A stretch of DNA of 64,000 nt. Origin: Bacillota bacterium. Lineage in GTDB: Bacteria; Bacillota; Dehalobacteriia; UBA4068. The notes under the pieces were generated by a model. That model did not search any database. It saw only the letters and a list, made by a program, of their open reading frames with translations, and was not told the origin of the DNA. How positions within the stretch are numbered: position 1 is the first letter of the stretch; every line of letters starts with the position of its first letter. A program made the translations under genes and the position numbers. The stretch is from assembly GCA_024679955.1 (NCBI GenBank), contig JAILCQ010000030.1, positions 50,030 through 114,029 of the forward strand, read 5' to 3'. Of the stretch, positions 1-1,321 are shown piece after piece.

Positions 1-315
1 TATGCTATCCAGTTTTCGGTCGATATCTTCTTCTTTCTTTTGCAAACGTTTTTCCTGACGGACGATTTCGTTGAATTTTTCCTTATTATCCCGGTCCGCT
101 TCTGCGCGCTGCCGGTGGATTTCTTCTTTGGCTTCCAACAAAGCTTCTTTTTTTCTGGTTTCGCTTTCTTTTTTGGCTTCGATCAAAATTTTTGCCGCCG
201 CTTCTTCGGCGGATTTGATTTTGGCTTCCGCAATATTTTTGCGCATATAGTATCCGGCCACCAAGCCGATGGCTAAACACACCAAAGCCAATAATGTAAC
301 AATGACTGGATGCAT
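1..315 (-). CDS. rny: Ribonuclease Y, N-terminal part (cut by window edge)
   Basis: First 105 codons of a minus-strand gene running off the left edge; the ORF track lists only a shadow frame here. The ATG at 315 follows GGAGGTGAATT. The translation begins MHPVIVTLLALVCLAIGLVAGYY, a single membrane anchor, then a long charged coiled coil rich in E, K, R and A (AEAKIKSAEEAAAKILIEAKK). This is the N-terminus of RNase Y, the membrane-bound endoribonuclease that starts mRNA decay in Bacillota. The KH and HD catalytic domains lie outside the window. Position downstream of recA/recX fits. Confidence 0.9.
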   Translation of the reverse strand, partial: MHPVIVTLLALVCLAIGLVAGYYMRKNIAEAKIKSAEEAAAKILIEAKKESETRKKEALLEAKEEIHRQRAEADRDNKEKFNEIVRQEKRLQKKEEDIDRKLDSI

Positions 316-360
316 AATTCACCTCCGTTCTCTGTTTTTTGGTTATTTTTGCTGAATGTT

Positions 361-389
361 AAAAAAATAACCGGGTTAAAAACCCGGTT
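361..389 (-). terminator. Intrinsic terminator upstream of rny
   Basis: On the minus strand AACCGGGTTTTTAACCCGGTT forms a GC-rich stem followed by ATTTTTTT. It lies about 45 nt before the rny start and well downstream of a strong promoter (542-570), so it either ends a small RNA or attenuates rny. Confidence 0.85.
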
Positions 390-536
390 CGTGAATATAG
401 ATGAATGACCCACGACACTTTTCGCCTTGGATATGCATAATATATATAGGATTTTAACTAAACGGATTATATATATCTCACTTCATCTATATATCATATC
501 AGAAATTCTGCTGAGAATCCCGAACAGTCTTTAACA
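361..536 (-). ncRNA. Candidate structured small RNA or attenuating leader of rny
   Basis: About 175 nt from the inferred start of promoter 542-570 to the terminator at 361-389. It is AT-rich, without a convincing ORF. A long-range helix is visible: TATAGATGAA (plus 485-494 complement) can pair with TTCATCTATA (plus 396-405 complement), enclosing AT-rich inner segments, followed by the terminator stem. No known RNA family was recognised. It may be an independent small RNA or a leader controlling RNase Y. Confidence 0.4.
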
Positions 537-541
537 TATAT

Positions 542-570
542 ATATTATTATTTTTCCAGACGAATGTCAA
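542..570 (-). promoter_or_regulatory. Sigma-A-type promoter for the rny leader
   Basis: Minus strand TTGACA (565-570), 17-bp spacer, TAATAT (542-547). The -35 is a perfect consensus. It lies just after the stop of the CofE-like gene and drives the leader/ncRNA and rny. Confidence 0.75.
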
Positions 571-601: not shown

Positions 602-1321
602 TCACGCCTTCAGCGGACGGATGATACCCATAGGCGTCTGCTGCCCTTCCTGGCCCAAAGGATTGTCTTTCAAAATCCGCACCATCAAATCTTTGTCGAT
701 GGATTTATCGGAAACGCCCAAAATGACGCCGCCCAAATCGTTCACGTCGGTAATGATCACCGGCACGCCCACCGCGTCGGACACATATTTGGCGGTTTTG
801 TCTGGTTCCAAAGGCCCCAAGGTAACGCAATGGTTCAACGGTTCCACCACATAATCGGCAGGACCGTCGATGGAAGCCACCCGATAACCGGCGATTTTAT
901 AAAACCAGCCCCGGCGGCCAAACAGCTTGCCGATGGCGGAAACGAAAGCGGCGAACAAAATGCGCAGCCGTCCGCATTCCCGAACCGCCATTTCCATGGT
1001 TTCCGGAATGCTGATGCCCACGCCATGGGGGTTTTTATAAACGAATTTCACCAAAAACCGCGCCAAACGGCTGGGTTTGATGGTTTCCACCGGTATGGAC
1101 CGGCCTTGGGTGGCGGCGACGCTTTTTTCGCCGAAAAAGATGATATCCCCTTTTTCCAATAATGGCCCGGCGTATTTTTGGGCCACTTCCGCCAGGTCGT
1201 CCCCTTGCCACAGCACATGGGTGCGCAGGCAAATGCGCCGGTAGGTCACGCCGTCCACTGTAATATCCGCGTTCTTTCCTTCGTTGATTACCGCATATTC
1301 GTTAGCAAATTCCGTCGTCAC
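602..1321 (-). CDS. F420-0:gamma-glutamyl ligase-like (CofE-fold) protein
   Basis: A 239-residue protein that reads like the CofE/FbiB ligase fold: KGDIIFFGEKSVAATQGR near the N-terminus, DGPADYVVEPLNHCVTLGPL in the middle and a C-terminal GVPVIITDVNDLGGVILGV segment. CofE adds glutamate to coenzyme F420-0. Nothing else in this window suggests F420 synthesis, so the substrate here is unknown. It has its own promoter immediately upstream and stands between recX and rny. The start codon follows GAGGGTAAGAAACG. Family assignment is fairly sure, function is not. Confidence 0.7.
   Translation of the reverse strand: MTTEFANEYAVINEGKNADITVDGVTYRRICLRTHVLWQGDDLAEVAQKYAGPLLEKGDIIFFGEKSVAATQGRSIPVETIKPSRLARFLVKFVYKNPHGVGISIPETMEMAVRECGRLRILFAAFVSAIGKLFGRRGWFYKIAGYRVASIDGPADYVVEPLNHCVTLGPLEPDKTAKYVSDAVGVPVIITDVNDLGGVILGVSDKSIDKDLMVRILKDNPLGQEGQQTPMGIIRPLKA

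Follow-up and report, generated by a model that had tools for sequence, protein, structure and literature searches.

A probable transcription attenuator upstream of the RNase Y gene, with the 5' end of the transcript as antiterminator

The closest described systems are of two kinds. In B. subtilis, RNase Y cuts its own 164-nt 5' UTR, mainly within the first 50 nt, and limits its own synthesis through decay of the finished mRNA, which is the only mechanism that we found described (PMC10303841). A text search of the same paper for a terminator or attenuator before B. subtilis rny found neither. RNase Y tends to cut at a G|A step, in RNA that is rich in A and U, has little structure itself and is followed by structure further downstream (PMC11780869). 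E. coli RNase E is likewise a decay-initiating endonuclease under the control of its own 5' UTR (PMC3997798); it binds a stem-loop of the UTR and the mRNA decays, without a terminator switch (PMC10303841). The second kind comprises the T-box, the transcriptional riboswitches and the L20-infC attenuator of Firmicutes, in which an intrinsic terminator precedes the ORF and an antiterminator competes with it; several such terminated Firmicutes leaders are cleared by RNase Y (PMC3542257).

We analysed the region upstream of rny in a 64,000-nt stretch of DNA from a Bacillota bacterium (the window, numbered from its first letter) and in relatives. Region 570-316 is probably a transcription attenuator for rny in which the transcript's own 5' end serves as antiterminator. 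It resembles the B. subtilis locus in having a long AU-rich 5' UTR before rny, but here a terminator and an antiterminator precede the gene and control would therefore act on transcription. It differs from the Firmicutes leaders named above in that the antiterminator is the extreme 5' end, far from the terminator, and in having neither an Rfam match nor a recognised conserved aptamer core. Terminator/antiterminator control and RNase autoregulation are both known kinds of regulation; the arrangement before rny is widely conserved in the phylum, and as far as we searched the literature an rny attenuator has not been described. Such a switch would add a second layer, acting on transcription itself, to the control of a main mRNA-cutting enzyme, would represent a leader RNA family that is new and that Rfam lacks, and would open feedback between RNA decay and transcription to direct testing.

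Parts of the leader

The earlier note on this DNA had described a TTGACA-N17-TAATAT promoter driving about 175 nt of AT-rich RNA, with a long-range helix and a terminator 45 nt before the start of RNase Y, and the analysis bore out each of these parts (Table 1). The leader RNA of the window is 176 nt long with an A+U content of 65%, contains the long-range helix UAUAGAUGAA/UUCAUCUAUA, and folds with a z-score of -2.8 against dinucleotide shuffles, none of 200 shuffles being as good. The end of the T-run (361) lies 45 nt from the ATG (315). The downstream gene is indeed rny by its Pfam domains; it is cut by the edge of the window, and its complete ORF is present in locus L001.

Table 1. Features of the rny leader region in the window.
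Feature	Position	Strand	Basis
Sigma-70-type promoter TTGACA-N17-TAATAT	570..542	-	Promoter scan; same near-consensus site at the matching place in relatives
Promoter boxes: TTGACA, 17-nt spacer, TAATAT	570-565, 547-542	-	10/12 consensus matches in scan
Transcription start (putative)	~535	-	Placed from the -10 box
5'-terminal antiterminator strand GUUAAAGACUGUUCGGGAU (RNA nt 1-19)	535..517	-	Pairing with 396-375; covariation
AUAGAU hexamer (RNA nt 46-51), 5' strand of helix P2; candidate RNase Y recognition/cleavage site	490..485	-	Positional enrichment in leaders
Central domain, closed by helix P2	492..392	-	MFE fold; consensus of 11 relatives
Helix P2, AUAGAUGA with UCAUCUAU	490-483 with 404-397	-	MFE fold; consensus of 11 relatives
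AU-rich helix within central domain	477-468/448-439	-	MFE fold; consensus of 11 relatives
3' antiterminator partner (terminator flank, 5' arm and loop)	396..375	-	Pairing energy; listed pairs
Intrinsic terminator, stem AACCGGGTTTTTAACCCGGTT (389-369), U-run to ~361	389..361	-	Terminator scan
rny (RNase Y), 5' part; gene runs on past window edge	315..1, ATG 315	-	Pfam RNase_Y_N, KH_1, HD

The promoter scan by itself found 4 sites against 2.6 expected, which is not beyond chance, and as a consensus scan is insufficient proof of a promoter the case rests on comparison with relatives. There the promoter does exceed chance, because the same order of parts precedes rny. A second promoter-like site, TTGACC-N17-TATAAT (11/12 matches; 1386-1358, minus strand), lies just before an F420-0:gamma-glutamyl-ligase-like gene (602-1321, minus strand), which sits between recX and the rny leader in the window and likewise in two relatives (L035 and L046). 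A leader peptide was considered and rejected: the AUG of AUAGAUG gives only AUG-AAG-UGA in the window, with neither a Shine-Dalgarno sequence nor a conserved frame.

Pairing of the 5' end with the terminator

When the leaders of relatives were folded, the extreme 5' end of the transcript was found to pair with the terminator. The idea that helix P1 is a mere closing helix of a stable RNA was dropped because the 5' end was seen pairing with the terminator loop. In the window, positions 535-526 pair with 375-384, 525-521 with 387-391 and 520-517 with 393-396. Since this pairing takes up the terminator flank, 5' arm and loop, antiterminator and terminator are mutually exclusive.

We compared the pairing energy of each 5' end with its terminator flank, 5' arm and loop against dinucleotide-shuffled 5' ends. 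For the window the energy of the 5' end against 396-375 was -17.1 kcal/mol (p = 0.007). The pairing was significant (p < 0.05) in 24 of the 33 leaders of the first set, with one more at 0.050 and a combined p of 1e-27; in these leaders a 5' end and its own terminator paired with a mean of -17.8 kcal/mol, against -11.2 kcal/mol when the partners were swapped between genomes. Further leaders from other families gave significance in 13/20, and an automated replication with fixed rules for choosing promoter and terminator in 22/24, i.e. about 59 of 77 leaders over all sets. Only 2 of 84 unrelated terminators given a pseudo-5' end were significant (mean z +0.22). Among the strongest cases are L043, where GUUAAGGACUGUUUUGCGUUC pairs with GAACGCAAAAC-CG-AGUCUUUGGC, and L181, where AGAUGAAUAUA pairs with the loop sequence UAUAUUCAUCU. 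No significant antiterminator was found in about 18 of the 77 leaders, including some very short ones and L154, L155 and L156, where a second promoter and repeated motifs blur the analysis. These three leaders, from a subgroup of family f2, carry the motif UUAGAAUA...UAUUCUGA twice upstream of rny, and one of the L154 copies is overlapped by a second promoter-like site. The evidence for a conserved anti-antiterminator hairpin was weak, with 3 of 38 below 0.05 and a combined p of 0.0017.

Covariation was assessed in 13 leaders, with the interior removed and replaced by an artificial anchor and the alignment made by sequence only. The antiterminator showed 77.5% standard pairs, with both sides changed in 11 of 20 pairs, and a covariation score of 0.342, against 0.218 +/- 0.023 when shuffled and at most 0.156 when slid; the limits of the antiterminator strand were chosen after the pairing had been seen, and the relatedness of the genomes inflates both the covariation and the counts of leaders. 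The terminator core was 100% paired, with 2 double-changed pairs. Column 45 takes part in both structures. A C there mostly has G as its partner in each, and a U there (L052 and L146) has A in each, the pattern that would be expected of a strand shared between two structures. Helix P2, in contrast, hardly varies between relatives, and its conservation therefore does not count as covariation.

The folds of the two transcript lengths also differ. In transcripts ending just before the 3' arm of the terminator, the antiterminator fold was obtained for 24 of the 33 leaders; with full-length RNAs the terminator was present in 22 and the antiterminator in 13, where one fold may count twice. The energy difference between the two states was small in several leaders. 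For the full-length RNA of the window, the terminator state (-44.7 kcal/mol) was favoured by 7 kcal/mol over the antiterminator state (-37.7 kcal/mol), whereas the pre-terminator transcript formed a 14-bp antiterminator (-39.6 kcal/mol). At equilibrium the terminator is thus favoured, so that the antiterminator has to work kinetically; the folds predict for it a head start during transcription.

Conservation of the leader and its linkage to rny

The earlier note had named a lack of structural conservation in related genomes among the results that would count against it, and such conservation was found. In relatives from the same family, order and class, rny is preceded nearly every time by parts in the same order: first a near-consensus promoter, then an RNA some 160-340 nt long, then an intrinsic terminator, frequently CCGAG...CUCGG, and then a gap, usually of 20-80 nt, before the gene. 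A terminator lies within 220 nt of rny in 15 of 18 genomes from other families of the phylum, and none was recognised in the other 3; both promoter and terminator were found in all 24 genomes of two further classes, many of which share a genus. The parts, the mutually exclusive structures, their covariation, their conservation and the link to rny all come from sequence analysis. As the same switch precedes rny in most of the relatives checked across the phylum, the amount of RNase Y in these bacteria is probably set by early abortion of its message.

A DNA search found the leader to be single-copy in its own genome. There were weak matches in several relatives, and those recognisable as the leader sit just upstream of rny; the independence from any one downstream gene that would mark a stand-alone small RNA was not seen among these matches. 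Upstream of the leader there may be recX, recA, an F420-ligase-like gene or none of the three, but the leader itself remains next to rny; the element belongs to rny. In most relatives it is recX that lies directly upstream. In 30 of 33 leaders, and in the window, the stretch from the terminator to rny contains no promoter-like site. The locus thus has the makeup of an intrinsic-terminator attenuator, with a promoter, a leader, a terminator and an ORF without a further promoter, and with an antiterminator that, by computation, excludes the terminator.

At the gathering score, Rfam gave no match in the window and none in the rny leaders of 20 relatives, and the leader in these sequences belongs to no Rfam riboswitch, T-box or leader family. 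Matches at an E-value threshold (PrrF, SorX and snoRNAs among them) were rejected as chance-level and far below gathering scores. Near rny in one relative (L177, 990-1282, minus strand; genome G057) there are group II intron pieces (RF01998 and RF02001). In Paenibacillus and Cohnella (L075-L144) rny likewise follows a near-consensus promoter and a long leader, of some 160-260 nt, which in most cases lacks a terminator. A UUUUUCCUUCCAAAAA-like segment is common to several of the leaders inspected, as is a CCAAGG...CCUUGG hairpin ahead of the Shine-Dalgarno sequence; this is possibly a different rny leader RNA.

Candidate signals and alternative readings

We infer the following sequence of events for the attenuator. 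Transcription would begin near 535. While the first ~19 nt are attached and free they would pair with the emerging terminator flank, 5' arm and loop, giving read-through into rny; if this strand were not available, the terminator hairpin would form and an abortive RNA of ~175 nt would be released. The most likely signal is spare RNase Y, which would cut the AU-rich leader near AUAGAU or just upstream; the cut would detach the antiterminator strand and favour termination, turning off the enzyme's own gene in a negative feedback. In the intact read-through mRNA the 5' end would be locked in the antiterminator duplex, and should resist 5'-end-dependent decay.

Of 69 leaders, 33 carry the hexamer AUAGAU within nt 26-95, where 4.5 were expected, with its start nearly always at nt 36-54 and with positional conservation that spans several families; it is not enriched in the following 70 nt of the same leaders. 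The first 60 nt contain more WWGA than expected (86 occurrences against 61.9 +/- 4.8). AUAGAU fits the published preference of RNase Y, and we tentatively propose, at somewhat less than even chances, that the signal of the attenuator is cleavage by RNase Y of its own leader. The full scheme, in which RNase Y cuts its leader while this is still being made, at the conserved AUAG|AU some 45 nt into the RNA, so that the antiterminator strand is removed, the integrity of the 5' end is sensed and the enzyme's own transcription aborts in much of the phylum, is put forward more tentatively still. Feedback on RNA turnover, as the attenuator reading would have it, is plausible by analogy with the autoregulation of B. 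subtilis RNase Y (PMC10303841). If 5'-end cleavage is the signal, the attenuator would sense nuclease activity rather than a metabolite, a tRNA or a protein. Against RNase Y as the signal, AUAGAU has no counterpart in about half of the leaders; in the window's family it is paired in P2, although RNase Y prefers single strands; and the membrane-bound enzyme would need to cut within seconds.

In place of RNase Y cleavage, a site for a protein or ligand would be a reasonable alternative, and the same attenuator might be thrown by another switch, i.e. an RNA-binding protein, a small molecule, a cold-shock protein or helicase, or the speed of RNA polymerase. This reading is a serious possibility that we likewise place short of even odds: AUAGAUGA and the strand it pairs with do not vary among 11 relatives, as would be expected of a binding site, and several families have conserved interior motifs of their own, but the leader has no Rfam riboswitch or leader match and its interior differs strongly from family to family, both in sequence and in length, which a metabolite aptamer would not do.

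An unregulated brake, with a fixed rate of leakage through the terminator and a 5' pairing that does no more than adjust the level or shield the 5' end of the mRNA, is unlikely. In its favour, little energy separates the two states in several leaders, and regulation here is our inference; however, two exclusive structures kept with compensatory changes are the usual mark of a regulated switch, and a weaker promoter would be a simpler route to the same effect.

The earlier note had offered either a small RNA or an attenuator, and it is the attenuator that the antiterminator, the covariation, the rny linkage and the lack of a promoter between terminator and gene favour. A stand-alone small RNA that happens to precede rny, with rny expressed by leaky read-through or from upstream, is improbable: it would account for a promoter and terminator of its own, and for L015, L038 and L043, where the terminator lies at least 150 nt from rny, but a plain small RNA would not need its 5' end to pair with its terminator, the leader is a single copy that stays with rny when the upstream gene changes, and the 30 leaders noted above have no promoter-like site after the terminator. 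Even if the attenuator reading is correct, termination will leave the leader as a short RNA.

A 6S RNA or another housekeeping RNA, suggested by the similar length and long hairpin, can practically be dismissed, as the only match to 6S RNA (RF00013) in the genome lies elsewhere, outside the window (G000:C43:11425-11608, E = 1.5e-18). Four genomes of the same class (G035, G037, G039 and G041, family f6) have two 6S RNA matches each above the gathering score, and most others have one.
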